Below, one piece after another: positions 2,909-54,463 of a DNA stretch of 64,000 nt. Location: assembly GCF_963675165.1 (NCBI RefSeq), contig NC_087381.1, forward strand, positions 806,001-870,000. Direction: 5' to 3'. The notes under the pieces were generated by a model, which saw only the letters and a program-made list of their open reading frames with translations, did no database searches and was not told the origin of the DNA. The translations under genes were made by a program, and so were the position numbers. The DNA is from Halichondria panicea (lineage: Eukaryota > Porifera > Demospongiae > Suberitida > Halichondriidae). Position 1 is the first letter of the stretch; each line of letters starts with the position of its first letter.

Positions 2909-9684
<6,776 letters not shown>

Positions 9685-10587: not shown

Positions 10588-10697
10588 TGAATAAAATGGG
10601 AGGGGCTGGTAAACTGTGATGAGCTGGTGATGATCGTCTTAGCTAGAAACTGAAAACATCAACTGAAAAGAAGATAGGACTATAATATAGTCCTATT

Positions 10698-14264: not shown

Positions 14265-14550
14265 TAGCTTTTTCTATTTTTATACCATATACATGCACGT
14301 ATATACTTTTTGTCTCTAATATCTGAGAGTGTGTCAGCTGGAGCTGCATGAGATTGACTGATTTATTTTTGGGTTGGGGCTGCTCTTTGCATGCATGCAT
14401 GCTTGCAGCTAGCTCAAGAATGATCTGCACATGCATCAAGGCAGACTGACACATTCCAATGAACATGTATACATGCCACAAGTCAATCCAACTTTGCTTC
14501 ATTTAGAATCACTGCATGTGCTGTAGCTATATTAATAGCTGCTCTGCAAG

Positions 14551-17261: not shown

Positions 17262-20200
17262 ATGGCAAGGTCCATTTTTGCTCTGACTGCAGTCGTCTTG
17301 GCTCTGAGTTTTTCTGGTGAGTTATATAAAAATCTGTAGTGAAACTGGTTTATAGTAACCGCCCTAGGGGCAGACCCAACAGCAGTGCATGGCTGTAGTA
17401 TAAAGAGGTGGCCTGCTAACACAGGTCCAAACATATGCTATGGAGACTTTGGGGCCCATTAACCTGGCTGTATTATAAGGTGGCCTGCTAACACAGGTCC
17501 AAACACATGCTATGGAGACTTTGGGGCCCATTAACCTGGCTGTATTATAGAGGGTGGCCTGCTAACACAGGTCCAAACATATACTTGGGGCCTTAGAGGG
17601 TGGCCTGCTTATAATTATAGAGTGAAAATAGACAATTTGCAATGTATGTTAGAGTTCATTCTCAGCAGCCTCTATATGTGCACGACATGTCTGCACGGTC
17701 TCTATATTTTGCATGAAATGATTTATTATTAATCTTCGAATTCTTTCTACTATTCTGCAGCTCAAGCTCAAGCTCAAGACGTGGGCTCCATGTGTGAGTT
17801 GCTGTAATAGCTGAAGCAGTACTGTTTATTGCAATATCTAAATTCAGAAGGGTTTATTTTCAGAATTTTAACTAATACTCCAAAAATAATGCAAGTGTGT
17901 AAAAATTAGTGAGAGCCTTCTACAGTAGTAACATTCCCAGACTATATTGTAGTCACATGCGTGTAATTATTGGAACAAAGTTGGTATGCTTTTCGGCACT
18001 GAAACTGTCCTATATATGCGAGCCTGCCCTTATATCGGTGTGTGTAGTAGTATCACGCAATGATCCCGTGGTTTAGGGCGTGCCGGGGTGTCAGGTCACA
18101 CAGGAGTTTGTCTATAATAACAGTTATTGAAATACTAGTACAACTCCAAAGGTGGGAGGATATGAGATGAATGTAAGGGATACCTACACTGTTCATTGAT
18201 GTAGTCCAAGTGCTTTGGGCTTGGAATTCAAAACTAGCTGAATGAGAGTGACAATAAAGCCATATTTCATTTCATGTATACGTATAGATTCAGAAATTCC
18301 CATTGCCCTTTGTAAATATTAACTTTGAGGTATGTTAGCTAGAGCCTTAATTGTGATGCTTGCCTGTAAACATATTATATACTGAAGTTCTCTCATTGGT
18401 TTGTAAATATTAAGTTCAAGGTATGTGCTGTAGCTATTGGTGTTTGCATTGTTTAATATCAACAAAGGTAGCTTCACCTACTTGTGTGTATATAGGCTGC
18501 ATGTTCGTGGTATTGACACACGCTCAGCCTGTAGCATAATACCGTCAGCAGAGCCCATACTAGTACTGTGCATTTAATTAGCATTACTGTAACATTGCCC
18601 ATAGATAGAAGAAGGAAATTGATTGCACAGTGTGCTTAGGTTGTTTATCTTGAGTGTATATAGTTGGCTGTGTGAGATTTGTGTAGCTCTAGCTTTGAAT
18701 ATGTACATGTATTTTCACACTGTACTGTGCTTAAAAACCCAGTCAATCATTTTGTGTACCTACTTGTAGAAAAGTAACTAAGTGTATGTATGTATATAGC
18801 TAGCTCCTAAACAAACATCAAAAAACAAAATACACGTTGAAAAACAAAAAAACTTTCATTACTATGTTTGATGAGTGGTCACTGTTAAGTGGTCTAATCT
18901 CACACGCTTCCCACCTACGTACTAAGTACATACAATAATTATGTCATGCGTTTGTTTATTTAGAAAATTAGTGCCCAGAATTTCTAAGTAGTGGCTATTT
19001 TCAATCTCAATTCAGCACATAAATTTACCTCTTTTATAGCCTGTTAGGTCTAGGGCACACCACTAGCTGTATGAATGTGTTGTAAACTGATGTGCTTGAT
19101 GTTATAAGGTAGGTAGGCTGGCATATAGCTTCTGTAACTGTGTCTGGTGTATTAGAGCATTATTCCCACCCCCCACATTCACCACAAAGCACCCCCCACA
19201 CTGTGTATTATGATACCCCCCACACTCACTTTCACCACAAAGCAACCCCCCACACTCACTACAAAGCAACCCCCACATTGTATTTTGACCTTTGTGATTT
19301 AAAAGTCACTGCATGCATGTACATACATAGTTTTTTGTTTCAATATTTGGACAACTGAGGTGTTGTAATCTGATTAGTCAATTAGACGATGACATCATAT
19401 CCTGTACAAGTGGGTTGTGTCTAATAGGGGTAGTTTTAGTCCATTCATATCAGCAGGACGTAATGAACTCCTGATGTAATTTAATCCTTCCTAAATTGCA
19501 TGCTTTATGGATATGCATTCCATCGTCCTTTTTAAGTTAATGAACGTGCAGACGATGCCCATTAATCGGTGATTGTTGCTTAAGCACCCGTGATGACCGT
19601 GAGGAAACTACATGCCCTTATGAGATAATCGTGTACAGTACTTTAATATATCAAAATCTGATTTGTCTGAACTCGTAAATTAAATTAATTAATATGGCTA
19701 ATTACCGTGAGTACTCATGCAGCCAATCAGCGTATTTATAGAACATACTTTTTTATCCCCTCGATATCTTGTCCCATTCGTCCCCCCTAGTTAAGCGACA
19801 GAGGTCGAGGTACGACACGAGCACCTCGATTAGGCTTGGTCACGTGCAAAATTAAACAGTAAAGTCATAGTTGCATGTGACTAATTAACTCAAGTTTAGC
19901 CCAATCGAGGTTTGTGTCGGACCTCCTCTGGTTAAGCAAAGTTCTTAAGTATTACCGTGGGAGTGTGTGAGAATGCTAACTCCAGGTCCAGTGGGAATTA
20001 AATAAATACGGGCGTAGCAAAATTGTTATCATAAAATTTAAACGCTACATACGTTACGAGTGATTGTTTTTATTTTCCAACAGTCTGCGACTATGGGTTG
20101 TACATGTGCCCTGATATGTATGGATCTTCCAACGTCTCTTGTATCAACTATACTCTTGTGTGTGACGGAACAGTACATTGTTACGGTGGACGAGACGAAT

Positions 20201-25966: not shown

Positions 25967-25997
<31 letters not shown>

Positions 25998-28900
25998 GTA
26001 AAACATTTCGTTTGCTTCATTATGTGTACTGTATTACATGGTTTTGTGGATAAAATTTTCGTAGAATGACTCGAGGTTGTGTGGTATACAGTCTTGAGTG
26101 TGAGCTGTAACTTGTACACATTTAATATACTAACTCGGCCTTTTATTTTATTTTCAGACAATATCATGCCCACTGGCACACCCACTGGCACACCCACTTT
26201 TGGTAAGATATATTATTCACCTGCTACGTTACAGTGTACTTGGTATTAGTTACTGACGTGCATGTGACAAATGTAGATGATCTGATTGGACGCTTAAATA
26301 CTCCAACTATATTATACGTATTATTTCACATGGAGATTTAGTTGATATACCATATATAGCGGGTTATTTTCGTATGGTGGACATTTTTGTATAATTATTT
26401 CGTATTGAAGAGCATTACACGAAAATTAAAACTGCAAATTAAATTATTATTCTACCGCAATAATATAGGGTTACGTTACTATCCTGAGCTTTACGAATAT
26501 TTAGAATACGAAATGTTTAATTGCGTAGTTCATATGAAAATTTGCACCAACAAAAATTACCTGCTATATATATATGGTATATCCCTTCCTCCTATGCACA
26601 GCCTGTCCTACTGGTTACGTGGCGTGTGCTACTTTCTCTAATTCTGGTTCTCCTTGCATCAACAACTCGCTGGTGTGTAATAGCTACATTGACTGTGCCG
26701 ACCAATCAGACGAGTTCTACTGCAATGGTAAGTATGTACCGTATATCTGGTTTATAATACGAGGTTAATTGATTGTGAATGACACTGTACAAGCATTGAT
26801 TGCGTTTCTAACTGTAGCAAATTGCATGCAAAACATGGGAAATTGCATGCTCACTCTCTGCGTTTCTAATTATGAGAGAAAATTCGCAATACGGAATCGA
26901 AAGAACGTCGCATTTGAAATCTGACACAGTAATTATACGCTATAATTATATAGGTGCGTAGTTAAACTTCTGTACATGGGCAATTTCCTACAATTAGATC
27001 CCACCTGCAGTTGAGTGTGCTTGGGATCCAAATTATTATGAGCATTGTACATACCAGAGGAGGTGGGTACGACAGGTGCGGTGCAGCTCAGGCAATTAGC
27101 TTTTGATTGAGCAATAATTATCCGCCCACGCCCCGGCTGCCTACGTCGTATATTTTTGCTGAGAGTAATCAGAGGCAAATTGCTTGAGTCGCACCGCGCC
27201 TGTCGTACCTACCTACTCTGGTACGTATGTATAACTGATTGCTAGGATACAAATGATATGTAGCTCCAATCAAAAGTGGAAAAATCTACCATTACATAAT
27301 GTGCCAGTCTGTTTACAAAGGAATAAATTATGTCAACTTATTACTTACTTATTAAACTTAAATTCCTGATTTAGTATATCTCATAATTAACACAGTATAT
27401 TCCTCAGTATGTGTGGTAATCACTTTTTATTTGTCCAATCAGATTGTCCCACTGATGAGCTGATGTGTCAAGGACTCAACTTTACCCAATGCGTGCCTAA
27501 CACCTACTTGTGCGATGGAAACAATAACTGCCCTAACGGGTTTGACGAGTCTATCTGCACTATAGGTACGCATCAGTGTGTGGTGTGTAGTCAATTTTAA
27601 TATTCGATTATTTCTAGATACGTAATAAATTATATGGAGATCATTATCTATATACCAATGTTTTAACTATGCTCCGCTGTTTTCTCAGTCGGCCCTAAGA
27701 TTTCATGTTGTTAGGTGCATAGCAAAAGTAAACAGTCTTGAGTGCAACTTAATTGTCACAAACGTACTTTTTTTTAATGCTAACTCTTGTTTCAGATATC
27801 ACCACACCCACTGGAATGCCCACTGGCCCACCCATTGGTGGTAAGTCACGACAAGAGTGGACGATCATGATCTAATATATAATTACAATTACTCGGTGTT
27901 AGTTACTGGCGTGCATGTGACAATTGTAGGTGATCTGATTGGATGCTTGAATACTCCGACTACGTCTTTTTCACGTGGAGATTTTAATATCATAATTATA
28001 TAGAACTCTGACCTCTGACCTCATTGCAGATTCTCACTCCCTTTTTCATTGACACAGGAAATTTAGAATAATTATTAAGAACAGTTTAAAATAATAGTTA
28101 CGTTGGTACAGTTTTATTATTTATTTATGCACATTTCTACAGGCCCTTGTCCAAATGGAAGTCTACCCTGTGGTTTCAACTTCTCAAACTGCTGGGTCCC
28201 GGAGCAAGCCTGTGACGGTGTCAATGATTGCGGGGACGAGCTTGCTTACGACGAGATACCTGGTTTTGTGGAGTTGTCAGGAGAATCTTGTATCACTGAT
28301 GGAGGATCTGGATCTGGATTTTTGGGTGGAACAAACGATTGTAAGAAAAGATATTTCGGGACTGTACTTATTGTATGTACCTAGAATACCTACTAGAGAG
28401 ATGACTATCAACTCTACGTGCGAGCAAAAACCAAAGCCAAATAGATTTAGATATTACTGTTCACTTTAGTTTTTGCTCGCAAGCTCCCTCTCTCTTTTTA
28501 TACGCCCTTGACAATACGTGTTATAGCTACATTGTCCATGTAAGCCTTTTGCGTAAGTAGGTATAGCATGAGACCGATTGAGTGTTTTTTGCAATACACA
28601 GACACAAACACGAAGGCGAGCTGCCTGTATATTTCATACAACACGAGGATTCTCATGCTTTATAATAATTATCACGACGACCTTTATAACACAAAAAGGA
28701 CTGGTGTTACACGCTTGTAACCTAATTGACAACGTGATATAATGAGTAGTGATTTAATAATGAAGTTTTTACCCCCCACAGTGATGATTAGTGTGTCATG
28801 TGACTGTATTACCCCCCACAGTGGTCATTGGTTTGCTAGCCCCGCCTTTCTTTGATGGTTTGATACCGTTTTCGGAGTTTGGAGGATCTTTTTCATTCTG

Positions 28901-31900
28901 CATTGTCCGAGGGGGGGTTTCGTCTAGCGACGAGTTCAATGTTACCGTGACAACTACTGATGTAAATGCAGGTAACCATGACGACAACATGCATTAGTAC
29001 TATGTACAGCTTGTGTATAAGCATTTTATTATTGGTCGATACAGTTTTAATTGGGAGAGAGGCCGAGTTTTAAACGATCCAATTTCCCAACACAATTTTT
29101 TTTTGTAGTTCCAGCAAAATTAATTTTTCCCGGCCATAGCAAGCTTATAATTATATATCTGTATAAGACTTCGAGTATTAATTTTGTCATTTTGTTAAAG
29201 CTGAAATAGGATCATCGAAATTTATCATGATTGAACCACTAGATGTATGTAAATTGTATATAATTATATGTCTGCAGTTGCCGGCTATGATTACGAGGAT
29301 GCCACTCAAACTCTGTATTTTGGTAGTCAAGACAGCATAATGTGTATCAACGTGACAATCATTGAAGATGATTTGATTGAATCGACCGAGAACTTTACGA
29401 TATCTCTGTCTGTCAGTGCTGACGTCAACTACACCTTCATTGGCCCAACGGAAGCTACTGTTGTCATTCTAGATTTTAACGGTATGTTAATCACGGTGAC
29501 TCGTTGAAAAACATCCAAGTTGATATATTGCCAAGCAATTAATACTTGAAATAATTATGTTTTGATAAAATTTAATTATACGTATGTGTTTTTTTAATGC
29601 CTATATAATTATACTAGAACCTCGATTATCCGGACACCTTGGTGTCAGAAGCAGGCCGGATAACCGGATAATCGAATAGATAAACCACGCCTTGATCCAC
29701 CCACTTTATTGATAAACAGCAGTGCCACATGGTTGTCTGCGCATAAGCAGGCCTGTCTCCATAGTAACAGCTGCACGCGCATGCGCATTTAAGGAACACG
29801 CCCATTTTCTGAATATTAAAAAGAAAATTGCCAAGCCGGATAATCGAGGTTCCGGATAATGGAGGGCCAGATAATGGAGGTTCTACTATACTACAATATA
29901 GTTATAGGCAAGTATTATGGTTATTATATCCGCATTTTATATCTGCAGGTATTGGATTTGATTTGGTTACCAGCAACGTGACGGAAAGTGACAATGCAAC
30001 ATTTGAGTTGTGCATCACCTTGACGGACATAAGAGGGGGTCTGGAGCGTAATGTCACTTTGGAAATAAGACAAATAGATTTCGGCCTCCCTACAGGAGCT
30101 CAAAGTAAGTAATGATTACCGTATAGCGGGTAATTTTCGGGGGATAAAATATTCGTGGTTGAGCAATATTTAGCCACTTCGTGGATAGTGGTTGTGCTGC
30201 TTGCACTGCAGGTAAAGGTAGGCAAGGTCGCTTCATTCGTGGGTAAAATATTCGTGGTCAGAGCTCCAACCACGATATCCACGAATATTTTGCCCCACGA
30301 AAATTACCCGCTATACGGTGCGTATATAACTGCCATAGTTGGATACTCCTCTTTATGAACTCCTGGTAATATTATAATTATTTATTCAGACGGAGTGGAC
30401 TTCACTATTACAAACCCTTTCATCACTATCCCGCGAACGGCCGAGAATGGAACAAAGATGTGCTTCACTTTTGCCAACGTGATTAACGACGAGAGAATTG
30501 AAGATACCGAAAGAGCTATATTTTTTCTCACCTCCAACAACTTTGCAGATGTGTCTCGAGACACTAGCTTTACTATCGAAATCATTGACAATGATTGTAA
30601 GTCTGATAATCACCTAGCAATGCTCATGGCAACATGTCTATATAATAATAATAACAATTCTTGTGCCCTCATTGTCAAAGGAATGTACATTATGTGTAGT
30701 AAGTACTTGGGCAGACCAACAGTGGCTGTATTATAGAGGGTGGCCTGTTTATAATTATAATATGTGTTTGGACCTGTGTTAGCAGGCTACCCTCTATATA
30801 TAGGGACACCACAATATCATAGCCTCAATACATGCAGTATCAAGTTGTTTTTTTGTTTTTTTTGACTACATGCAGTTGTCCAGTTTGAGCTCTTAAATGC
30901 CACTGAGGTTCAAGTTGAAGAAGATCGTTCTATAAGTTTGTGTTTGGCTCCTGTTGGGAACGTCTCGGCATACTACGATCGATTACTGCCCTACATCACT
31001 GTCATCTTCAACGTGACGTCAGAGACAGCTGGTCAGTGGTGCTCCCATGTGCATGTGTCATAATTATGTCATATCGTGTACGAACTTACATTTTTTTTCA
31101 CTGAGTGTGTTTGTCTAGGAACGAGTTTGTATGGTTTATATGAACTTAAAGTTGTGGAATATTTATATACCTGCAAGTACACTTTTATTCGCTTTTTGCC
31201 CCAATCTAGATAATGGAGACTATTACACTGGATCTGTATATCAGTTGTTTGATGTTCGAAGCAGCGATATCGTCTGCGTTATGATAATCACTAGAGAAGA
31301 CAGCCAAATTGAGAACACAGAGACGTTGAGAGTAACAGCAATAATATCTGATCCAGATGTAGTTGTCGGACCATCGCAAGTCAGAGTGTACATCTTGGAC
31401 AGAGACTGTACGTGTTATATCATTGCCGTTATAATTATGTAGACAGTAGGTTGCAAAAATTCTTCTTAGGGAATATTTCTCATAGGTTTAACGACAAAAA
31501 TTACCCAAAAAAGTGTCTGATAAATACGATATGTACATGTACATAAATTGTTACCCCTCAGAAACACCTCACGAAAATTAATGCTAAAATCGCTCTCTAA
31601 ACCAAAGCAGTTGATTCTCACAATGTAATTATTATTTTTCTTCATCGCAGCCGCTGAGTTTGAGTCATCATCCTTCATGCCGCACATTGCCATGCGTGAG
31701 GCGGACTGGTATCTAGGGGCACCACCTCGTAGCTTCTGCTTCGCTCCGACCCCCCTCACCAGAGTTTTCCTGCAAAGAGATGTGACTCTGACATTCACAC
31801 CAAGCAGTCTGGGAGCAAGTAAGTATTAATTTTACCGATTTACGCTACAGCTCTTCTCTAGGAGATTTTCAGTGAATATACGATCTCATAAGTTTCGTAC

Positions 31901-40900: not shown

Positions 40901-43900
40901 ATGATAAGTACAGTTTACTGTGCTCGCTGGCTTTTCAAATGCGTATAATTTAATAATTAGCACGTTTGATGCTCGTAGTAATACTACCATGAACACGTGC
41001 AGGTGCTGTCATCACACTGATGGCTATTGGTAACGTCATGGAGGACCAAACAGTTGATGTTATGTTCTCCGTGGAGGGTACACTTGAGAAGAACATCACT
41101 GTAACAGTCAGCATTATTGGAGGTGGTAAGTACACACTCAACTTATATTAGTACAGTTGAATATAATTATGCAGTCATTTTCGTTTGTTGTAATCATTCA
41201 AATTTCATGGGCTGCCTTTTGCTTTGCATGCAAGCTAGCAGCGGGTATATTTCTAGGATATAAAATGTTCACGGTTTTCGCTGATTTTAGTTTATACCCT
41301 CGAAATATACCCGCTATAAATGATGGTATAAAATTAATAAGCATTGTTCTGTCACTAATTTTATACATATACGGCTTCCTTCTATATATAATTACGTTTT
41401 TGCATGCAAGCTGTGCATGCATGGAATTTCTATGTAAATAGCTAGCTATTGATTTTCATTGATGGACCGATCGAACTTTGATCTCTCATTGAACAGATAC
41501 AAACGACGCCATGATCATGGATGGTGTATTTATCGTGTCCGCCAGCGGATTATATACAGTCGTACTGGTTGTCATTGGTGACGCTATCATCGAGAACCCA
41601 GAGACATACACAGTTCAGATCAGCTCTGATAACACCTTCGATGAGATTGGACCAGCACAGAACTTCACCATTATCGATCAAGACGGTAAGAGAGGTCATT
41701 AATTTAGAGTACATACAGGATTAGCATCTTAGACTGTTATTAATTTGAGTGTAGAATGTGTTCATGATAATTATATTATTTCTTCAAGTAAAAGATAAAT
41801 TTGCGATTATCAGATTGTACGTTTAGATCGAGCTAGATTACACAAATCTGTGATGGGCCAAATCCATCGTTTTATAAACTATAGGGTCCTGATTATAATT
41901 ATGCAATAATGTTTTGCTCTCATGCAGGAGCAACAATTACATTAAGCCCTATCGACGTCATCACTGAAACTGATGAAGATGTCAACATCACCGTGTCCTT
42001 CTCAGTGATGGGAACGTTTGAGAGGCCATCGACCGTGACCGTCAGTTTGACACAATCGGGTGTTTCTGAATCGGGTAAATAAATAACTATTGTAGCCATT
42101 ACGATTGCATACAAAGCTGTGATTATATAACTGTACGTTCGTATATGTGCATAATCAAGGTACGCTATTACCATAGTAACCATGCAAGTGTTACATCTTG
42201 TGCTTCTTTGCAGATATAAACGATGTCAGGATTGTCTACGACGTTATCAATGTTGCTCAAAGTGGAGAGTACACTGTAACCATGGTGATAGTGGGAGATG
42301 TACTGATTGAGAATACGGAACAGTTCCGATTGATATTTGTATCCGACAATGACAACGATGTCTTCTATCAAGGTCTCGGTCCCGAGATGATTGAAAATGG
42401 TAGCCTGAGTTTCAGTGTGATGGACAATGACGGTGAGTTGCTATAGCAACATGTAATCACTACCGGCCCAGTAAGACACAGAATCTCATTAGTTAGGAAA
42501 CACAGCCACACATAAGACTACATTTCGTTCCTCAGGAGCCACAATTCTACTAGACCTTATCAGTGACATCACTGAAGAACTTTGATTGTCACTTGTTCAT
42601 TGTTACCCATGCAGCTACTATAATACAACTCCGTTATTTAAGAAACAGTGCATCTATACGTGTATAGAAGCATACTGATATTAATGGCCATCATGATAAT
42701 TATGGCTATTGCACTACTTAACTAAAACATTTTCCTTTCATGAATACCTAGGTGCTATCTTTACACTGGGTGAATTCGAAGTTGCCGAGGAGACTGACGT
42801 TGATATCACCATTCCCGTCAACTTCGCTGTGACAGGGCAATTTGAGAGAATGTCGACCGTGACAGTCAAACTAGCTCTGGGTGAGTGGAATGCATGCTTT
42901 ATAGTGCTCAGCAATCGTAAATTGCGCATCTTATTTAGGAATAACCTTATAGCGTACTGTCACGTACATATATCATGTTTTTTACAATCCCTATATTATT
43001 GTGGTTTATTTGGCTCCAAAGTTTCTACAACAGGAAAATTAATTTGGCGAGTCTTTCAATTTGGCAATTATTTTGGTGAATTCTACTAAAAACTGTTCTA
43101 AAAATGGCACATTTGCCAAGTATAATACTTGCCTTTATGTGGTATTTCTCAAAACATGTGCCATCCATCTTTCATTGATCCCCAAGTTGAGATTTGTTTG
43201 CATGTATATTATCACAGACACGAGTGATGTCATGATTACCAATGGAGAGGTAACTGTTTCTGTTGCCGGGGACTACTCTGTCAACCTGGTTGTCGTTGGC
43301 GATCAATTCGTAGAGGGTAGCGAAACTTTCACAGTGGAGATAGTCGTGTCTAATCCACTGGACATTTCTGGTCCCTCACAGATACTCACCGTATCCGATG
43401 ACGATGGTACGTATATTTGGTATAATAATTTAATGACGTAACATTATGAGCACAAAATATTTCTAAACACCAACACCATGCACCATGTTAATTGGTTTGA
43501 AAATTGCAACTATTGTGCAGTTGTATACAGTTGCACCTTCCAGCCACCATAATTCATTATCTTTAGACCACTTAATCTCAGTCGCTCTATATAATCTCAG
43601 CTGCATACGTATATTATAATTATAATTATAGATTTCTTAATGCTACTGAGATCAGGGAATTCCCCTCCCACAATTACTGCATTATAGCCCGGGGAATCCC
43701 CCTACCACCATTACTGCATTATAGCCCGGGGAATCCCCGTCCCACCATTACTGCATTATAGCCCGGGGAATCCCCGTCCCACCATCACTGCATTATAGCC
43801 CGGGGAATCCCCGTCCCACCATCACTGCATTATAACCTGGGGAATCCTCCTCCCACCATCACTACATTATAGCCCGGGGAATCCCCCTCCCACCATCCTG

Positions 43901-46900
43901 TGTATTGTAGTTCCACTCTCCGCGTCATTTAACCAGTGTGTGTACTGTTCCTGTGTCCATACATGCAGGTGCTATTGTTCTCTTGGAGACAACGATGGTT
44001 GATCTGGCTAAGGGAGATGCAGTGAGAAACACTACTCAAGTGTGTCTGAGCGTTACTTCTGATCTTGGTCTGCTTGAAAGAAATGTGACTATATCAACAA
44101 GTGTTGATGAATCTGGTAAGCTTGAAATATACGTAGCTGTGTATATATCTAACGTACGTAATTCAGTTATCTATTTATGGGTTCATCGACCAATTCTAAG
44201 TAATTTTAAAGTACATTAATTTTGTTGATTATTATGATATAATTTTATTCCCTTTATGCACAGGTTTAACTGTTGACAGTGAGCTCGCCATTACCATGGA
44301 AACAGGGAGGGTGTGCTTTGAAGTATCTGTCATTGACGATGGAGAGGTCCTAAATTCAGTCCTCTCTTTCCAAATCACCTTCTCTCTAAGATGGCCGGTT
44401 GATAACTTTGAGCAATTCTTCATCACTACCATTTATGGTAATTTTGTATTTTGCATGTATAGATTACGACGATTAGATTATAATTATAACATCATGTGGC
44501 TCAACGACACAGTAATAAACAAATCCCTGCCTAGCTGGATTTACAAACCTCTTATTATGGAACTCCGTAATTAAGCTAGAAAAAAGCCAATGATTAATGA
44601 AGATGACTTAATTGCATAGCATACATAATAATTATTATAAACGAAAATAACTATTCACCATAGTACATGTAAATAAAAAATAGTATATGCTCAAGCTAGA
44701 TCTAACACACCTTCCTCCATGTTACAGTCACACCGCTGGTCACTGATGTCAACTACACTCCGTTCATTGATCTCGCTGAGGACGATGGCGTGAAACTACA
44801 GCGCCTGACCAACACCGACGATGGCTGCTCCAGCCTCATCTACATCAACAGTGGTCTTCCCTACGGTTCTAAGAGCGAGACGTCACTCAGGGTAAGGTTC
44901 CCTCAGGCTTATAATATTGTTACTATAATTATTATTTCATTTTCTTAAGAGCTTGAAAAATCTACAATTATGGTCTGATTTCAAATTTACAGATACTTCC
45001 TACTGCATATAATAATAGCATGTTTTGAGGGAAATGTGAAGTTATTCATTGTACATATGTATACATACCGTGAGGCTTCGTATTCCATTGGTCGTCATAA
45101 TGCGTAAGTGAAAAGCAATTAATAGCTGTACGTATAGTTCTGTTTTCACAACATCAATTTTCTTGATCTTCCATGCAGGTTTGTGCCAATGGAGCCATCT
45201 CAATTGGCACTGAACATTTCAATTTCTTTTCTCCGAGTCGATTCCCAAGCTCTTCGAGTCAAATCAGTTCCTCTAACGTCTTGGCCCCGTACTGGAATGA
45301 CCACGACTTGCGTGGGGATGGGAGTTCTATAAACTACAAGGTCTACACCCGAGAGCAGGGCAGTCGGGTCAGTGATGCAAAACTAGATGCTATCAGTCGT
45401 TTGATTTCAAATAAAGAAGAACTCAGTTTCAGTGGAATATGGATGCTTGTAGCCGAATGGAACGGTGCACCTGCCTATCCGTTTAATACTGACAAACCTC
45501 CACGAAATACGTACCAAGCCGTAGTGGTTACGGATGGTACTCAGACGTTTGCCGTGTACACTTACAACTGCGAGCAACTGGAATGGGAAAGCGGACAAGG
45601 TAGCAGCGTGTACTCCGTTATCGGCTACAATATTAATGATGGAAATTCACTCTTCTCATCAGTCAATCCATTTATGAATCATCCGTTAAGCAGGTCCAAA
45701 GGTGTCCGATCGGTAGCATGTATGAACAATCCCCTCCGTGTGGAGTGGTCGAACCTCGTGTATCTAGTCGGTAACGACACGGGAGCTGGTCAGCTTGCTA
45801 GGGCAAACTGCATCAACAGAGCTAATAAAGATCAAAGCTCGTTTCAGGCGAAGTCATTTAACAGTCAACCGTGTCCCTGCTCCTTTGCTCAAGCGGGGCG
45901 TGATAATCGTTATAGATTCGCCCGTAATACTTTATTCTTCATCACTAGAGATACTAGTTTCTTTGATAATTTCTGTTACGTACAGCGTTTCCGTTCCACC
46001 AATGGTGTTCAACTCTGCTGCTATAGTCGACAGTGAGTTTGTACAATTGGGTATATAGTATTGAGTGGGATAATTTTTCACCCTTGGACTAAAATCCTGG
46101 ATGCGGCCCTGACCGTAGAATATAGTTAGCAAGGTTACCGTATAGAGGGTAATGTTCGTGGGGCAAAATATTTGTGGGTTAAAGATCTGACCACGAATAT
46201 TTTACCCACGAAGGAAGCGACCTTGTCTACCTTTACCTGCAGTGCAATCAGCAACCAGGAAAATATTATCCACGAAATGACTAAAATTATATTGCTTCAA
46301 CCACTAATATTCCCCCCCCCCCCAAAATTACCCGCTATACGGTATCTAATAATGGGAACGATGTGGAGGGAGGCCGGTAATTTTAGAGAGACACCTCATT
46401 AATTAGTGCTTTTCCGAAATTATATTTATATAATACACCATTTCCCGTAGGTCTGGAGCGTTGCTAGGAGACCGTACATCTGGCAGCGATGCAAGTAGTA
46501 GCTCTCTTCTGCGATTCAATCCATTTTCTCAGCAATCGGATTATCTAGAGTTCGACTACAATTTCCAAGAGAGCTGCTGTAAGAACAGTGACATGTGTCA
46601 AGAGTACACACGTCTGCGCCCCAGTCATGACTGTAGCTCGTATAGGCCTCAACGGAGAGGTATGTATAATTATGATTGTCATTATGGTATTATGAGCGGC
46701 CGCTGTTATACAGCAGTGCTAGAAATGATTTTTTATTGACTGTATATATGGTCAAATGTCATTTGTGCCTGGTCATACTGACTGGACACATGCATGGTCA
46801 TTCTAATTAAACGTCCGGTCAATGACCAATGGCTGTGAGTAATTTCCAACACTGATACATACGTAGAGAGAGTGTTACTTGCATACATAAGTGAACTCAC

Positions 46901-49433
46901 GTAGTACGTAATTACTATATTATAGATTACTCTGATGGTAAAACTTTCAAGTTCATAAAACTTGTCACTAATTTTAATTGTATATAGTCGTACCTTAATA
47001 ATTATAATTATAACACACAGGATGGTTTTGGGGTGACCCTCACGTCACTACCCTTGATGGGGATGTGTTCACCTTCAATGGCTGGGGGGAGTACAGCCTC
47101 CTCGAGTTTACTACCGACACGACCGCCTTCACATTTCAGGGACGAACAGGCAATGTCAGTGACTCTGAACGCTCTGCTACAAAACTGATAGCTTTCGCTT
47201 TTGGTGTGAGCACCGAGATGCGCGTTCAGGTGAGTAAGAGTTTCACAACTTGAGCAGAGATAATCTTACTTTCTTTGTCCCTTTTAAGTTGACGTAACTT
47301 GTCTTGAATTCGTAGCCATAGGATTGTATAACTACTATTATGATACAGTACAGTGTGTTGTCAACCTACTACTTGTCCCTAATAGGTGGACGTAAATGGC
47401 GATACTGGACTCACGGTGTTATTTAATGGAGACGACATATCAGCAAATGTGTCAAACACGAATGATAGTTTCACAATCGATCAGCTGTCCGTTTCCAGGG
47501 AAAGCGAAAATTCCTTGACAACTAGTTTTGAAAACGGGATTGGGGTCACTATTACGGCTTCGTTTGAAATGTTGTCCTTTGTACTGTCAATGCCAGAGGA
47601 ATTCCAGAACGTGACCCGAGGGCTAATGGGAAATTATAACGGAGATCCTACGGACGACATCGTGTTTAGGAACGGAGATATGCTCTCTGGAAACGTGTCT
47701 GACAGGATGATACATGACTTCGGACAATCATGTAAATATAAATACATGTACATTAATGTGTATAGGCAGGCAGCAACCAGATAAATGGGCAATTTGAACA
47801 TATGCGTAGTACGGTTGCGAGTTTTGTAAAAAGTACACGTACGTATGTCTTAAGCTATAGTCCAATCTATTAATTCTAAGTCACCAATAATGCTATATAG
47901 CCTTCTCTCTTCTCGATCTCTCTTCTTGAGATACATGCATAACTGCATCAAAATCAGTACATGGCATGGCGGCGTGCCTCGGTTATAACTTTAATCCCAG
48001 CTGTAATTGTATTCACTCTTATATCTACGTGTGTACCCACAGGGGAGATCAGTGCACAAGATTCCTTCTTCACATACCCTGAGGGAATGTCTGCAGCTGA
48101 CTATTCTTTTCCCAATCACGAGCCCATATTTGCGGATGAAGCGGCGGACAGTGTTCCACAAGATGTGCTCGATGCTTGCGGTGATAATCAAGAGTGTATC
48201 TTTGACGCTATTCAGACTGGAAACCTGGAAATTGGCATGGAAACCTTGACTACGAACAATGGGAATATTGATGATCAGAATCAAGCAAGTAAGTGCAGTA
48301 CAGTCTGTAAGCAGGTCACCCTCTATAATATATACAGCCGGGCCCAAAGTCTCTCCGTAGCATGTGTTTGGACCTGTGTTAGCAGGCCACCCTCTATAAT
48401 ACAGCCGGGCCCAAAGTCTCTCTGTAGCATGTGTTTGGACCTGTGTTAGCAGGCCACCCTCTATAATACAGCCGGGCCCAAAGTCTCTCTGTAGCATGTG
48501 TTTGGACCTGTGTTAGCAGGCCACCCTCTATAAAATACAGCCAGGTTAATGGGCCCCAAAGTCTCTCCGTAGCATGTGTTTGGACCTGTGTTAGCAGGCC
48601 ACCCTCTATAATACAGCCAGGTTAATGGGCCCCAAAGTCTCTCCGTAGCATGTGTTTGGACCTGTGTTAGCAGGTCACCCTCTATAATACAGCCAGGTTA
48701 ATGGGGCCCCAAAGTCTCCATAGCATGTGTTTGGACCTGTGTTAGCAGGCCACCCTCTATAATACAGCCATTTAATGTTAATGGGTCCCGAAGTCTCCAT
48801 AGCATTCATTTGGACCTGTGTTAGCAGCTCACCTTTTTGTTATAGCCACTGTTGTCTGCTTAGTCCTAAGGGTGCCGCAATGATAATCTCCCAACTTAAT
48901 ACCAGCTGCCTATAATGTTAAGTGCATGTATACAGTACTTACGAGACTCAGTCGCAGATATTTCGCTCATTTTGATATGTTGTGAGCGTATCTGCTGTAT
49001 TTTTTCCACAGGCAACAGCCCCCCACTAATCACGGGACCAAACATGCTCCGTCTTGATGTGGGCGTCATGGCAATCCTCCGTTTCAACGTATCGGATGAT
49101 AAAAACATGTTCAACGTCACGGTTGTCGGCGGTCTACCAGAAAACTCACAGCTAACACCGACTGTTATGGATGGGTACACGGACTACGAGTTCGACTGGA
49201 CACTATCGACTGTGGAGTCAGCGAGATCGATCATGTTTGAGGCCAGAGATGAACTTAATGCGAGTGCCGTACTGAATGTGCAAGTGCAGACCTGTGCCTG
49301 TATGAATAGCAGTGACTGCACTATTGAGGGCATCGCTGACACAACTGCTAGTAGCATTGTTCTCAACTGTGAATGCTCAGAAGGTGTGTTTTAAATGTGT
49401 AGCATGCGACTGGTGGAACTGGCCTCTGTGTGC

Positions 49434-49478
<45 letters not shown>

Positions 49479-52400
49479 CGTGTGTGTGTGTGTGTGTGTG
49501 CATGTGTGCGTGTGTGCGTGTGTGTGTGTGTGTGCGTGCGTGGGTGCCTTTATGCTAGCAGATGTTACTGTAGGCCTATAGCTAGTCAGTCTAGCTATAT
49601 TTACTGAGTATATAGCAACTGCATGGTGTACTGGCCTATATAGTGTGTATGCACTTCCTATTTATCTTACAGCCTGGATGGGAGAGTTCTGTGAAGAGGA
49701 CGTCGATGGTTGCATGGAGTTCATGTGTTTTGATGATGTGGCTTGTACCGACGTACCGGCTCCAGGAGTGGGGGCGGCGTGTGGAATGTGCCCTGATGGA
49801 TACGTGGGCGACGGAGAGAAGTGTGAAGGTGTGTGTTGTGTGGATACATAGTTTCCTTAATATCTGTTGATGAGCATGGAAAATTGTACAGTGTCAAGAC
49901 AAAATGTACATGTAGGTATACAAGTTGTATTTCTGCAAGGCAATAGACTATAAATACATGCGTACTAGCATTAACAAGTCATCAACTACTTGAGGGTGTG
50001 TCCCTTCCCGTGTCATCTATCTATTGTCACGTGACATACAGATATCAACGAGTGTACGAACGGTACGCATGGATGCTCTCAGATCTGTAACAACGTTCAG
50101 GGCTCCTTTGAGTGTCTGTGTAATGAAGGTTACAGGCTCGCCAATGCAACATACTGTGAGGGTAAGTACACCGATGCAGCTTATATACTTTTGTAATTTT
50201 GTGTAAAGCAAAAAATAATCTTTATACAAGCTATTATGGGATCTAATTAATCAACAAATTACAATATTATTGTGGCCTACATACAGGGTGTAGTACTATT
50301 TATCATGATGTCATTGTTTTCCCGGACAGATATCAATGAGTGTGACATGTTGAATGGTCGCTGTCACCAAAACTGTACTAACAACGATGGTGGTCACAGC
50401 TGCAGCTGTTTCGAGGGTTACGAGCTGAGCAACGACAATCTAACATGTACAGGTATGTACGGAAATCAATGATGTATAATTTATAGTATAGTTCTCTGTA
50501 GTTTATGGAATATTTCGTGTACATACAAATCATGTGCACGTGCCTGCATGTTTGCAGATCGAACACGTACTGTTGTTTTGATGCTATATACATGTATGTC
50601 TCAAATTTTGTATCTTGTTATAGTGATGATGTAATTTATTTTAACTTGTTCCCTATAGTGCTACCAACTTTCGTGTGCCCAGTCAACAACACCTGCTCAC
50701 AGAACTGTGTAAGTCTCTTAGGAGTGGAGACTTGTAGCTGTAACCAAGGCTACCAGCTCGCCACGAACAACCAAACTTGCTCGGGTAAGTGCATGGGTCA
50801 GGCAGGTGCTGGGTAATCCTCTCAGTAGAGTTTAAGATATGGCTGTTTTACTTTTTAGACGAGTGCTTTAGTACAGATCGATACTTGACTGCTAATCTGA
50901 GGTAGCAAAATATACTTTGCAGTATTTATTATGGTTGTGAGGTGTACATGTACATAATTATGTTAACTTTTATTTAGTATCAAGATGACTAAAAACTAGA
51001 GAGATGGTTCTCTATTTGAATTAAGGCTGCACCTATATAATTATCTCTGTACTTGTATATAATTATAGCTTTAATGTAATGTATAGTTATATAGTATGAG
51101 AACTGATTATTTGTACACGTATATACGTAGCTCTTCTAAAGTAATGCTGTTATGATTGTGCATGCATGTATGCAGATGTGGACGAGTGCCTGGAAGGTCC
51201 CTGTGGGCAAGGATGTAACAATACAGATGGAGGCTTTGTATGTTACTGCAGAGACGGCTATACACTGCAACCGGATGAAACAACATGCATGGGTACGAAC
51301 AACCACGATTTATGTAACTCTAATTTTAGCATAAGTAGACATATAGCGGTGCATGTGCAATGTAACCCCTACATAACGACCTGTATAGTAAACACATTTA
51401 TAAAGGGAATATATATAATTATATATAAGTTCATTATTTTGGGACCTATACCCTGTATATTAATTGGGGTATAAATGTTCGTGGTTTTCGCTGATTAACA
51501 TGTACTGCGAATGTTTATACCCACGAATTTAATATTGCATGCATGCATGCTGCAGAAAGGCTGCTATTCCGCAAAAACCTTTCTATATCGGTCATTCTGC
51601 GTATAAATTTATACCCTCGAAATAATTATACCCGCTATACGGTATTTATTTAGTTGATAAAATAATGTATAATGAGTATATGACACATGCATCCATTGCA
51701 GACATTAATGAATGCCTGGTGTCGGCTATGAGTGGTGTTACTCTGTGTACCTCTCCCATGTTCTGTGTTAACATGCCTGGGGATGCGGGGAAGTACTCCT
51801 GTCAGTGTCCGGAGGGAACTATACAAGCCGGAAACACGTGTGGTATGTGTGGGTGTGTGGGTAGTGTCTGTAGTAAGTGTGGGTGTGGGTGTGGGTGTGT
51901 GGGTAGTGTCTGTAGTAAGTGTGGGTGTGGGTGTGTGAGTAGTGCATGTGTGTAGTATGTGGGTAGGTTAATTAGTTTGGGTGTGCGAAAATTAACTGTC
52001 AAGTAATTTTTCTATAATTATTATGACGTATAAATTGTAATTATTTTCATTTTCATTAACTCTTTTCACATTTGTTGCCTCCTTTCCTGTAGTCATGCCG
52101 ACCACGCCCCCACCTACTATCGTTGTGCCAACAGGCACAGTTCCATCTGCGTTCAGAGATAATGCCGTTGTCATCACACTTGATGGCCGAACAGCTGAAG
52201 AGGTACAGTGTATATATGTACATGTACGATATAGTGTGGGTGTGTGTGTGGGTGGAGTGAATAATTAATTATTTGTTTATTATGCCTATAAAAAATAATT
52301 ATATCAACAAAAATGACAACCTCATTTTGAACCTCGTTGAGTCTTTGTTTGATATCAACAGGGTATTGAAAAAGTAGTTTACCTAGCAAATGAAAGCATC

Positions 52401-54463
52401 GCGGGTGCTGATGCCTCAGTGGAGGTGTCAAAGCTACATATATAATCATTTTTCTTTCCCATCCAGTTTGATGAGACCCAAAGACAGATGTTCCGAGTCT
52501 CAACTGCAAACGCTATCAACGCGTACTGCAGAGAGAATCCCTGTACTTTTAGCAGAAAGTAAGCTTGTTATAATTATACTTGCACGTAATTAACAATATC
52601 TGAGGCTAATCAAATACCAGGGTGTCATACAGGGGAGGGGGTCCAGGGTGTCATACATCCAGGGAGGGGGGGGGTGCCAACGGTAATCCCAAAATCCACG
52701 TAGTCGACACATTTTCAGGAACATCAACAGGGCATTGAAAAATCAATTCACCTACATGTATATATAGCAAATGAAAGATCTCCCCCCTCTACTGCAAAAA
52801 CACCCTGAAAGCATTCTCTTCATTTAGGGATGTCAGTTTCAATGCTCTATATTGTGTGATAGCTAGATGATACAAAACTGTGTGGGTGGGTATATCAAAT
52901 TTGGAAACTATGAGTGATTTTAATTCCCTTTCTATATATTCATATCTGGTTTTTGTGCTTTCCAGGAGACAAGCAGCCACGGTAACAGCAGATGATGTAA
53001 TAATCGAAAACGTGCGTGACAATAACGCTGGCCACTTGACCTTTGACATGTACGTCCAGAGTGGTGGTTCCGCTGCACTGCCTGCATCAGCTGTACAAGA
53101 GGCCATCGAGGTGGGTCAATTAGGGTACCCATATCAGTGTTCGTACAAAATGTAGGTAAAGATATTGAATTTTTAGGCCTAAATACAAACATCACGTACG
53201 TATAATAATTATAAGTCCATAACTTATGTTTTTATTATTGTCATATAAGCAGTCTATCTTAATTTTGCTCTGGAATAACATTCTTTAATATACGTATTTC
53301 TAACATATATCTAACATATATAATTATACATATCTTTCAGCGTAAGTTGATATTACACTCTCATCTCATACAGGAAAACCCCAATTTCTTCCCGGGCCAG
53401 ATGGTGATGGTGGAACCCCTCGAAGCTCCGCCCACTACCATGCTCCCCATACCAGTGGGTCTGAGCACGGCCGAGATCATCGGGATAGCTGTTGGGTGTG
53501 CTGTGGGAGGCATTCTACTCATCGTGCTCATCGTTGTCCTCATTGTCTGGTGAGCTATGCACAGTCACAATATCAGGAGTATATGTTATCAGTCCATGCA
53601 CTTAGGAGCAGAGTTTTGGCTGTTACGTACCTTATAGCGGGTAATTTCCGGAGGACAAAATATTCGTTGTTTTTTCATGGTTGAAGCTCTGACCACGAAT
53701 ATTTTACCCACGAATGAAGCGACCTTGCCTACCTTTACCTGCAGTGCAAGCAGCAACCACGAAAATAGTATCCATGAAGTGACTAAAATTAATATTGCTC
53801 AACCATGAATGTTTTGTCCCCCGAAAATTACCAGCTACAGTACATGCATGCATGCAGAGGTGGCCTTTGTTGAGGTTTTTTGTACCTAAATTGTTCTTGG
53901 GGACCTGGTCCTGGGCTTTTTATCATAGTTGGCCTTTCTTCTGAGATATTCTATTGTTACATTGATTGCAGCATTGTTTTCCACTTTCTGTATAATTATA
54001 TATCTGCCGACCAAGTACATTTTACATACTGTATAGCATAAACACAAAGCTAGTTACACTACACCCACACACACACTCATACGCCCACTCACCCCACACA
54101 CACAGTATCATCCGTTACCGTCACAAACACCAAAAATCAGTCAACTTCAGCTACGGTATCGAGTATGACAATCCAGTTGCCGATAACGACGACGACATCG
54201 AACCAGCCAACACTCGTCCTATGAATGGGGTTGAAATAACAGTTGCTGCTCCTGACATCTACGTCAATCCTGGAGACCTGAGTGAACAAGCTGAAGAAGA
54301 GCCCAAGGCAAAAGAAGCAGCTGTTACTGACGAGATAGCTGAGAGAGACGAGGGTGCATCAAATTCAGACCGCTCAATGCAGAGCTTGATTCTCAAGTTC
54401 GGAGATGATGATGATAATGCCAGTCAGCATTCTACCGAGAAAGAAGAGCTCACTTCTCTCTGA
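17262..54463 (+). CDS. Giant LDLa/Calx-beta/NIDO-AMOP-VWD/EGF membrane protein (gene 5)
   Basis: About 70 exons join into one frame of 11,736 nt (3,911 aa). The start ATG at 17262 opens a signal peptide ([18 protein letters not shown]); exon 1 ends at 17316 and exon 2 (17761-17793) adds an AQAQAQD stretch. Approximate residues: LDLa modules 30-607, Calx-beta 608-2557, NIDO 2558-2840, AMOP 2840-2966, VWD 2967-3233, linker domain 3234-3357, six EGF 3358-3618, SEA-like 3619-3734, membrane helix about 3768-3793, cytoplasmic tail to 3911. The NIDO-AMOP-VWD-EGF-TM order is that of the MUC4 membrane mucins; Calx-beta repeats are known from sponge aggregation factors and bind calcium in other proteins. 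The inferred role is a very large calcium-dependent adhesion or recognition protein. No internal promoter, signal peptide or terminal exon splits it, but only transcripts can prove that LDLa and Calx-beta parts are joined. Confidence 0.8.
17387..17613 (-). repeat. Minisatellite family M, three units, inverse orientation
   Basis: Units contain GGTGGCCTGCTAACACAGGT and GGGGCCCATTAACCTGGCTG, the reverse complement of the 48311-48830 unit. It lies in gene 5 intron 1. Confidence 0.85.
18041..19035 (+). repeat. Dispersed repeat family G, copy 1 (gene 5 intron 2)
   Basis: Two blocks, 18041-18182 and 18494-19035, recur in the same order and orientation at 59888-60017 and 60571-61100. The second block is about 540 bp and nearly identical by eye. 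No protein frame is seen. Confidence 0.85.
19160..19285. repeat. C-rich low-complexity repeat
   Basis: Irregular repeats of CACAAAGCA/ACCCCCCACACT in gene 5 intron 2. Confidence 0.8.
19788..19937. repeat. Imperfect foldback (gene 5 intron 2)
   Basis: The left arm (AGTTAAGCGACAGAGGTCGA...ACCTCGATTAGGCT) pairs with the right arm (AGCCCAATCGAGGT...CCTCTGGTTAAGC). It looks like a small MITE of its own family. Confidence 0.65.
20263..20463. mobile_element. MITE family A copy (gene 5 intron)
   Basis: Ends TACCGTATAGCGGGTAATTT and CCTCCTATACGGTA, with core CACTGCAGGTAAAGGTAGGC. It follows LDLa module 1. Confidence 0.9.
21321..21416 (+). repeat. 26-bp tandem repeat, four copies
   Basis: Repeats of GGGTAGCTATTGTTAGCCAT plus a G run, starting a few bases after the donor of LDLa module 3. 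Confidence 0.9.
21780..21975 (+). repeat. Dispersed repeat family F, copy 2
   Basis: Close match to 3445-3620, including CTCGATCAGAGGCCGC and the GCTAGCTACATGTACGTAGC end. It lies in the intron after LDLa module 4. Confidence 0.8.
22423..22625 (+). repeat. Dispersed repeat family E (three copies in the LDLa region)
   Basis: The segment starting GAGGTTAATTGATTGTGAAT recurs at 25440-25620 and 26760-26935. The latter two arose with the LDLa block duplication; this one lies in another intron. Confidence 0.75.
22957..23392. mobile_element. About 435-bp palindromic element (family D)
   Basis: The two halves are inverse complements over most of their length: GAGCCAAATCAGCAGAAA near 22992 pairs with TTTCTGCTGATTTGGCTC near 23328, and GGCAAGGATCGTG near 23046 with CACGATCCTTGCC. 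A half-like copy lies at 36466-36650. Confidence 0.8.
25076..25270. mobile_element. MITE family C copy 1
   Basis: Starts TACCGTATAGCGGGTTATTT and ends TTGCTATCGGTAT. It lies immediately before LDLa module 8 and is duplicated with it at 26348-26580. Confidence 0.75.
26348..26580. mobile_element. MITE family C copy 2
   Basis: Homologous to 25076-25270 with small indels, before LDLa module 10. It marks the left border of the second LDLa block. Confidence 0.75.
27054..27221. mobile_element. Foldback element with about 31-bp ends
   Basis: CCAGAGGAGGTGGGTACGAC at 27054 pairs with the right arm ending GTCGTACCTACCTACTCTGG at 27221. It is absent from the paralogous intron after LDLa module 8, so it inserted after the block duplication. 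Confidence 0.75.
29612..29890. mobile_element. Inverted-repeat element (TAGAACCTCGATTATCCGG family)
   Basis: The left end TAGAACCTCGATTATCCGG pairs with CCGGATAATCGAGGTTC near 29834, followed by two imperfect repeats of GATAATGGAG to TTCTACTATA. It lies in the intron between Calx-beta domains 1 and 2. Confidence 0.75.
30117..30319. mobile_element. MITE family A copy (gene 5 intron)
   Basis: Ends TACCGTATAGCGGGTAATTT and AAATTACCCGCTATACGGT, nearly complete. It splits the two exons of Calx-beta domain 2 and is very similar to 20263-20463. Confidence 0.9.
30718..30802. repeat. Minisatellite family M, inverted fragment pair
   Basis: CTGTATTATAGAGGGTGGCC in one orientation is followed by GGACCTGTGTTAGCAGGCTA in the other, so two family M pieces face each other. 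Confidence 0.7.
36466..36650 (+). repeat. Family D half copy
   Basis: GAGCCAAATCAGCAGAAAGT and CTGGCAAGGATCGTGTG match the left half of the palindrome at 22957-23392. Confidence 0.7.
37717..37870. mobile_element. MITE family A, divergent copy
   Basis: Ends TACCGTATAGCAGGTAATTT and AAATTATCCGCTATTAGACAGTA. The interior lacks the family A core and resembles the 5-369 copy. It lies between the exons of Calx-beta 10. Confidence 0.7.
41239..41317. mobile_element. MITE family B, short copy
   Basis: AGCGGGTATATTTCTAGGAT pairs with CCCTCGAAATATACCCGCT. Family B is marked by GCGGGTATATTTCGAGGGTA ends. Confidence 0.7.
42536..42585 (+). pseudogene. Broken Calx-beta half exon
   Basis: GAGCCACAATTCTACTAGAC and the next 25 bases match the start of the exon at 39272, including the CGTTCCTCAG acceptor in front, then read ITEEL and a TGA stop (42583-42585). 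The rest of the exon and its donor are missing. It is left out of the gene model. Confidence 0.75.
43644..43902 (+). repeat. 37-bp tandem repeat, seven copies
   Basis: The unit reads ATTATAGCCCGGGGAATCCC plus 17 bases; units start at 43681, 43718, 43755, 43792, 43829 and 43866, with a diverged unit in front. It is the most GC-rich stretch of the intron before Calx-beta 17. Confidence 0.93.
44728..46032 (+). other. Gene 5: NIDO (nidogen-like) domain
   Basis: Exons 44728-44891 and 45179-46032 are joined in phase 0. The sequence runs [41 protein letters not shown], then [30 protein letters not shown] and YSVIGYN. This is the NIDO pattern of nidogen, MUC4 and tectorin-type proteins: an extracellular domain with a conserved 'APYW.D.D' stretch and a 'NTYQ..v.tDG..tf..y.Y' core. 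The 854-nt exon is by far the longest in the gene and continues into the AMOP domain. Confidence 0.88.
45857..46659 (+). other. Gene 5: AMOP domain
   Basis: It begins near [16 protein letters not shown] at the end of the 45179-46032 exon and continues in 46451-46659, joined in phase 2. Cysteine pairs PCPC, LCCY and SCCK with the end CSSYRPQRR match AMOP (adhesion-associated domain in MUC4 and other proteins), which directly follows NIDO in MUC4. The intron between the two exons holds a MITE copy (46136-46344). Confidence 0.82.
46136..46344. mobile_element. MITE family A copy (gene 5 intron)
   Basis: Ends TACCGTATAGAGGGTAATGT and TTACCCGCTATACGGTA, with core CCTTGTCTACCTTTACCTGC. It lies in the intron splitting AMOP. 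Confidence 0.88.
47021..48288 (+). other. Gene 5: VWD (von Willebrand type D) region with GDPH
   Basis: Exons 47021-47229, 47386-47731 and 48043-48288. The first opens [20 protein letters not shown], the standard VWD start. GDPH is coded at 47032-47043; in MUC4 and other mucins an Asp-Pro bond of this motif is cleaved autocatalytically. The second exon has [13 protein letters not shown], the usual VWD end. The third ([30 protein letters not shown]) matches the segment after VWD in MUC4 and SUSD2-type proteins. Confidence 0.85.
48311..48830 (+). repeat. Minisatellite family M, main array, about seven units
   Basis: Units start at about 48311, 48382, 48449, 48516, 48594, 48670 and 48745 (67-79 bp) and contain GCAGGCCACCCTCTATAATA, CCAAAGTCTCTC and GCATGTGTTTGGACCTGTGT. 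The first units lack an AGGTTAATG segment found in the later ones. The array starts about 20 bp after the donor at 48289. Confidence 0.95.
49012..49383 (+). other. Gene 5: linker domain between VWD and EGF (Ig/cadherin-like)
   Basis: A single 372-nt exon reads [17 protein letters not shown], then beta-strand-like segments ([40 protein letters not shown]) and four cysteines near the end ([17 protein letters not shown]) that lead into the first EGF. The position matches the region between VWD and EGF in MUC4-like proteins. A cadherin/Ig-type beta-sandwich is inferred from the pattern, not proven. Confidence 0.6.
49427..49547. repeat. (GT)n with GC interruptions
   Basis: About 120 bp of TG/CG repeats in the intron before EGF module 1. 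Confidence 0.95.
49673..51842 (+). other. Gene 5: six EGF-like modules
   Basis: One module per phase-1 exon: 49673-49828, 50042-50161, 50330-50452, 50659-50784, 51176-51292, 51702-51842. Modules 2, 3, 5 and 6 begin DINEC or DVDEC, the calcium-binding EGF start; module 2 carries [18 protein letters not shown] and module 5 [16 protein letters not shown]. Module 4 ([17 protein letters not shown]) lacks the calcium-binding start. Confidence 0.88.
51449..51643. mobile_element. MITE family B copy
   Basis: Contains GGGTATAAATGTTCGTGGTT near the left end and TACCCTCGAAATAATTATAC and CCGCTATACGGTA at the right. It lies in the intron before EGF module 6. Confidence 0.7.
51845..51955 (+). repeat. GTGTGGG tandem repeats
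   Basis: Repeats of GGGTAGTGTCTGTAGTAAGT separated by GTGTGGG runs, directly after the EGF module 6 donor. Confidence 0.88.
52093..54463 (+). other. Gene 5: SEA-like region, membrane helix and acidic tail
   Basis: Exons 52093-52202, 52467-52558, 52966-53110, 53374-53549 and 54106-54463 (stop TGA). A Pro/Thr linker ([14 protein letters not shown]) is followed by an alpha/beta region ([37 protein letters not shown]). Its size and position before the membrane suggest a SEA-type domain; no GSVVV cleavage motif is seen, so this is a weak inference. The helix is [20 protein letters not shown] and onward. The 119-residue cytoplasmic tail starts [12 protein letters not shown], contains EYDNP and is rich in Asp/Glu (GDDDDN near the end). 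No catalytic domain is seen. Confidence 0.78.
53628..53842. mobile_element. MITE family A copy (gene 5 last intron)
   Basis: Starts TACCTTATAGCGGGTAATTT and ends AAAATTACCAGCTACAGTA, with the full core GAAGCGACCTTGCCTACCTT. Confidence 0.88.

Follow-up and report, generated by a model that had tools for sequence, protein, structure and literature searches.

Calx-beta arrays are found on cell-surface or matrix proteins such as ADGRV1 and FRAS1/FREM. The sponge aggregation factors, which are extracellular, secreted and devoid of a membrane anchor, also carry a long Calx-beta array, their hallmark being the Wreath domain. Calx-beta and LDLa modules both bind Ca2+, and the YWTD propeller is a feature of the LDL receptor family. 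Mucins contain a PTS domain (PMC1552070). For MUC4, an outer subunit bearing a tandem-repeat mucin domain is described, and the human protein is presented as undergoing a putative autocatalytic cleavage at GDPH that gives rise to the alpha and beta subunits (PMC8660890). Mucin4-like proteins of the sea anemone Actinia are reported with N-terminal CUB, ZP or FN3 domains and, for some of them, a C-terminal SEA domain; the same article reports the proposal that MUC4 descends from a SEA-bearing ancestor (PMC9080433).

Here, we consider a window of 64,000 nucleotides of the sponge Halichondria panicea (C5:806001-870000), all comparisons being made within the same genome (131 Mb, 39 contigs). Positions given below without a contig are those of the window, and the parts of the gene lie on its plus strand. 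It is likely that all the domains found at 17262-54463 are encoded by one gene, specifying a single-pass type I cell-surface protein predicted to be a Ca2+-dependent adhesion or ligand-binding receptor, and we infer that the stretch is read as a single transcript. Rebuilding it with an independent, hand-curated splice model gave 68 exons that together form a single uninterrupted reading frame (3,893 aa and a stop codon), with GT-AG borders in 67/67 introns, phase 1 in 60 of them and a median intron length of 302 bases. The preliminary description had proposed the domain chain in one frame of 3,911 aa, and the new model recovers it, including the junctions 28340/28822 and 44437/44728. The order is as follows: signal peptide, 12 LDLa, 17 Calx-beta, NIDO, AMOP-like, VWD with GDPH, C8-3_MUC4, unnamed domain, six EGF, possible SEA-like domain, one membrane helix and a 119-aa acidic tail. 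C8-3_MUC4, the unnamed domain (125 aa) and the SEA-like candidate were absent from the earlier list. A Pfam search, which the preliminary description proposed as a check, was run on the 3,893-aa translation in three pieces and places LDLa, Calx-beta, NIDO, VWD, C8-3_MUC4 and EGF over cut-off.

For training the splice model, domain-bearing exons in the window were taken, 66 of the 69 typed peptides having been placed for this purpose. By manual editing, an 18-base exon at 22805 was taken out, exons 25736 and 51702 were trimmed of their GT-repeat extensions, and the last exon was made to start at 54106 rather than 54151, because a basic stop-transfer results. A run with zero start and stop costs was rejected, as it yielded many separate fragments, most of them nonsensical. 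The model is devoid of a reliable gene-end signal and fuses the whole window into one gene; its exon joining and gene borders were therefore not counted as evidence for a single gene. Exon 1 (17262..17316) encodes the signal peptide (18 residues), with an ATG, a hydrophobic core, a donor score of 7.6 and an end in phase 1, and ranks top among six candidate first exons at 16251-20084. It is followed by a tentative short linker exon without domain (17761..17793; acceptor 8.1, phase 1-1). Upstream of the gene, SRCR modules are found in exons at 214-16241, with a membrane-helix-like stretch in three frames (9070-9684, with a proline-rich PPTY tail; 13801-14163; 15690-16241), which suggest several SRCR receptor genes. 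In the same region, a CA/GT microsatellite (about 4190-4740) extends over more than 500 bases and stays open in several frames. An interspersed repeat, probably a MITE-like element, occurs in introns at 20341-20481, 30134-30366 and 53638-53805, with similar nonsense peptides in translation.

The 12 LDLa modules (20084..28340; Pfam PF00057, 143.7 bits, 10 stretches) are encoded by one exon each, starting at 20084, 20937, 21165, 21482, 23542, 24023, 24692, 25290, 25736, 26602, 27443 and 28143, and two short TP-rich linkers lie inside the array, at 26158 and 27796. At least six Cys and a DE motif are present in 12/12 LDLa exons. Modules 10 and 11 match modules 8 and 9 at 90% and 88%, respectively. 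Among 17 genomic matches of the array at E <= 1e-5, 12 correspond to the gene itself and five are on C17 (37-57% over 41-63 aa); no close copy of the array was found elsewhere in the genome at this threshold. The 17 Calx-beta modules (28822..44437; Pfam PF03160, 119.7 and 73.2 bits, five and four stretches) are encoded by two exons each, in phase 1-1. Both counts come from exon alignment, and for Calx-beta also from a profile, Pfam alone giving 10 and 9 stretches. With this profile, built from seven modules of another gene, 17/17 modules score above all 350 controls (340 shuffles and 10 other pieces of the protein), modules 17 and 15 only narrowly (10.0 and 9.8 bits versus 9.6 for the best control). 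Modules 14, 15 and 16 match modules 11, 12 and 13 at 77%, 83% and 75%. When modules 1-7 (856 aa) were used in tblastn, matches outside the gene were at 34-41% among the best 53 of 140 candidates, none of which exceeded 41%. Pfam also lists Ribophorin_II_3rd among the Calx-beta modules, at 23.7 bits for a cut-off of 23.4 and with no single stretch passing; this match was taken as spurious.

The C-terminal half was described earlier as being of MUC4 type, and this holds: NIDO, AMOP-like region, VWD with GDPH, C8-3_MUC4, EGF and helix follow each other in MUC4 order, as in MUC4 and the cnidarian mucin4-like proteins. NIDO with its N-terminal extension (44728..45724) is encoded by exon 44728-44891 and the first part of exon 45179-46032; Pfam PF06119 gives 73.2 bits at aa 2592-2776 (44883-45724), and a genome search gives 78.4 bits at C5:851170-851724. 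The AMOP-like region (45797..46659) occupies the rest of exon 45179-46032 and exon 46451-46659. Its own sequence has no Pfam AMOP match at E <= 1. It aligns with paralog B at 43% and with paralog D at 35%, and the resulting three-row profile aligns with a C12 sequence over nearly its full length (hhalign 96.5%, E 7.4e-10). In this C12 sequence, Pfam recognises AMOP at residues 6-92 with 35.3 bits (cut-off 25), and the region is therefore named AMOP-like. The VWD (47021..47731; Pfam PF00094, 68.4 bits) matches FCGBP and gel-forming mucin structures, and contains GDPH at aa 2953-2956, starting at 47032. It is followed by an exon with a MUC4-type C8-3 (48043..48288; Pfam PF23263, 47.5 bits, cut-off 25, match at 48141-48260), then by the unnamed domain of about 125 aa (49012..49383), which is kept in paralogs (tblastn, 34-50%) and has no Pfam match at E <= 5. 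NCBIfam returned nothing on the 622-aa piece from NIDO to C8-3. Six EGF modules (49673..51842) start at 49673, 50042, 50330, 50659, 51176 and 51702; this part matches Pfam cEGF (103.4 bits, five stretches), FXa_inhibition and EGF_CA. No YWTD propeller was found by Pfam at E <= 1.

Between the EGF modules and the membrane, a possible SEA-like domain (52093..53549) is encoded by exons 52093-52202, 52467-52558, 52966-53110 and the start of exon 53374-53549. Homologous exons precede the helix in paralogs (44% over 96 aa, E 1e-23 versus paralog C). The candidate has no Pfam SEA match and no PDB match with a four-row profile; it has a weak Collectrin match (E 0.11). The transmembrane helix is in exon 53374..53549 and corresponds to the strongest hydrophobic window (19 residues starting at aa 3759, KD 3.51), two weaker hydrophobic windows (KD 2.19 and 1.83) falling within Calx-beta modules. 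The last exon (54106..54463; acceptor 4.7, in frame, hand-chosen) encodes the stop-transfer RYRHKHQK, the acidic tail (119 residues, 23.5% D+E) and the stop. A YxNP motif is present in the tail of the window gene and in paralog C. It was found neither after the helix of paralog E nor in the tail of paralog D, so that no claim is made on it.

The block from NIDO to EGF, hereafter the cassette, belongs to a family. When 858 aa from the C-terminal half were taken as tblastn query, the best 53 of 354 candidates gave at least 85 matches, of which 8 fall in the window and the other 77 form 25 clusters elsewhere. In the DNA examined for paralogs (26 stretches, each of 10 kb, plus 2 kb of C12), the cassette was read outside the window in eight genes or partial genes (B, B2, B3, C, E, two of D-type and one at C1:3.54 Mb), with GDPH at the VWD start in 9/9 cassettes, gene C contributing two. 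LDLa and Calx-beta lie upstream in the window's order in four of the nine cassette genes, that is, the window gene and B, B2 and B3; the pair was not seen in five of the eight others read, and the N-termini of the D-type genes and of the one at C1:3.54 Mb are of other kinds. The three tandem genes B, B2 and B3 (C1:4.02-4.08 Mb) show the order LDLa, Calx-beta, NIDO, AMOP-like, VWD, C8-3 and EGF. The order given in the preliminary description thus recurs in them, which argues that it probably belongs to one gene.

Gene B (C1:4022766-4035307, 12.5 kb) is covered by one ab initio model, with a signal peptide (by eye), an LDLa pair, Calx-beta and EGF, then NIDO, AMOP-like, VWD, C8-3 and EGF. This model is imperfect, since it has two zero-length exons and partly skips NIDO, which was placed by genome search at C1:4028365-4028950. 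Calx-beta (92.7 bits), VWD (63.2), C8-3_MUC4 (35.7) and EGF types are over the Pfam cut-off, LDLa (17.0 bits, cut-off 24.1) and Sushi (16.6 bits) below it. The LDLa part aligns with that of gene F at 35% over 119 aa (E 9e-18), and LDLa of F passes Pfam at 27.9 bits; the LDLa call in B therefore rests on homology to F. An IgGFc_binding-like piece (23.4 bits, cut-off 25.6) lies before NIDO. B, B2 and B3 differ from the window gene by having two LDLa and few Calx-beta modules instead of 12 and 17, and by having Sushi-like, IgGFc_binding-like and EGF parts ahead of NIDO. Moreover, a different domain forms the C-terminus of B and B2, whereas the window gene ends in the SEA-like candidate and helix (the end of B3 is beyond the DNA read). 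From their sequences, B and B2 look secreted and the window protein membrane-anchored.

Other loci combine the same modules differently. At C1:4036960-4045993, a tandem copy of gene B has its NIDO-to-EGF cassette deleted: homology to B breaks off within an EGF exon (B 4028079) and starts again, after 9 bases, in the intron that precedes the C-terminal exon (B 4033786). Gene C (C5:3523485-3559461) starts with Ig-like and many Sushi-like exons and has two MUC4-type cassettes, as well as a 1.1-kb PTS-rich exon and SEA-like exons (by eye, not Pfam), and may be a truer mucin relative. Gene F (C5:1416910-1423185), beside which lies a tandem copy, is made of an LDLa pair and a Calx-beta array (302.4 bits, eight stretches) and is a possible aggregation-factor relative; its ending resembles ITI_HC_C, below cut-off. 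The C-termini of B and F show a weak likeness (24.6 bits, E 0.001). A shared inter-alpha-trypsin heavy-chain C-terminal domain was first considered for them; with F reaching 20.6 bits for a cut-off of 27 and B having no match, it is a weak lead. Two further loci, both on the minus strand, carry Calx-beta arrays with NIDO. At C1:15285001-15325000, outside the listed MUC4-type tblastn matches, a long array is followed by NIDO and Sushi-like exons; at C2:269229-281085, NIDO lies upstream of twelve modules with near-equal scores, eleven of which have a spacing of about 405 bases.

By assembling these elements, a mode of action can be proposed. Ligands would be bound at the distal tip by the 12 LDLa modules, which would be carried by a long rod made of the 17 Calx-beta modules and stiffened by Ca2+; next to the membrane, the NIDO-AMOP-VWD-C8-3-EGF block would act as a unit of MUC4 type. 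As in the scheme put forward for MUC4, cleavage would probably take place within the VWD, between Asp and Pro of GDPH, and leave an outer part of 2,954 aa and a membrane part of 939 aa. The outer part might then stay bound to, or be releasable from, the membrane part with its acidic tail. Ca2+ binding, adhesion and shuffling are presumed from the domains and their arrangement. The cassette, lying between phase-1 introns, would have come to stand in many genes behind differing N-terminal parts. In its broadest form, the scheme would have a shuffled phase-1 cassette joined to many adhesive arrays, tethering here an aggregation-factor-like, GDPH-releasable Calx-beta arm with an LDLa tip, so that the family yields both membrane-bound and secreted (B, B2) recognition molecules; we regard this extended version as speculative and rather unlikely to hold as a whole.

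The same family could be seen otherwise, the protein being an immune-type receptor, one of many copies in a large, fast-turnover family, whose array would be a variable microbe-binding region without adhesion role. The size of the cassette family and its differing N-termini, the recent internal duplications of LDLa and Calx-beta modules, the adjoining SRCR exons and the paralog copy with a deleted cassette are all in line with this possibility, which we nevertheless hold to be doubtful, as nothing close to the LDLa array was found in the rest of the genome and the modelled frame is open throughout.

A second question is whether the adhesion-receptor reading, in which all the domains belong to one protein, joins what are in fact two or three adjoining genes, namely an LDLa receptor, a Calx-beta protein and a MUC4-like receptor, fused by prediction. 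Such neighbours are conceivable, given that the genome contains cassette genes without visible LDLa and Calx-beta and that gene F combines LDLa with Calx-beta but lacks the cassette. With almost every intron in phase 1, the frame is no test, and the span splits in the model with free starts and stops. However, the two doubtful gaps, 481 bases between LDLa and Calx-beta and 290 bases between Calx-beta and NIDO, are exceeded by 9 and 37 of the 67 introns, respectively; they are of ordinary intron size, which counts for one gene without being decisive. The Calx-NIDO gap contains two polyA-type hexamers, which speak for a gene end there; at least one such hexamer is present in 20/67 introns. Neither gap holds a signal-peptide-like first exon among the 13 candidates of the approximately 37-kb span (exon 1 included), several of which sit in other introns. 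This absence is weak evidence, because 0.27 candidate would be expected in the gaps (13 per 37 kb). More weight against a fusion comes from the tandem genes B, B2 and B3, where LDLa, Calx-beta and NIDO follow in this order, many exons being tens to hundreds of bases apart. Altogether, separate genes appear improbable at this locus.

That the single protein would be a true membrane mucin of MUC4 type, as its NIDO, AMOP-like, VWD with GDPH, C8-3_MUC4, EGF and helix in MUC4 order might suggest, is most improbable, since the PTS domain is missing, P+T+S reaching at most 29% in sampled windows. Indeed, no PTS or mucin stretch is present in the model (100-aa windows taken every 20 aa), and the window protein is therefore MUC4-like without being a mucin: where the outer part of MUC4 has a tandem-repeat mucin domain, it has 12 LDLa and 17 Calx-beta modules. 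Among the parts compared, the Calx-beta array is the one that it has in common with the aggregation factors; they are secreted, whereas the window protein has a strong helix with a stop-transfer, LDLa modules and a MUC4-type block. The idea, put forward in the preliminary description, of a link between mucins and aggregation factors thus finds no support in these data, there being no PTS stretch on one side and one part recognised as shared on the other. ADGRV1 and FRAS1/FREM also share the Calx-beta array with the window protein, which shows neither 7TM nor CSPG by Pfam at E <= 1.

In the open-licence articles searched, no described protein with this full domain order was found. AMOP and Calx-beta occur together in one article, for different genes (PMC11788884), and LDLa, NIDO and Calx-beta are named among Halichondria panicea receptor domains in a figure legend (PMC8242945). 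Judged from its sequence, the domain combination looks new and the kind of adhesion receptor known, namely a MUC4-type receptor in which LDLa and Calx-beta arrays replace the mucin domain. The paralogs, with their common block and differing ends, offer natural comparisons for the function of this block. Furthermore, the SEA-like candidate before the helix touches on the proposal of a SEA-bearing MUC4 ancestor reported in PMC9080433. Finally, a MUC4 ectodomain standing in a sponge without a mucin domain, behind adhesive arrays, bears on the origin of MUC4: the NIDO-to-EGF block may be older than the mucin part of MUC4.
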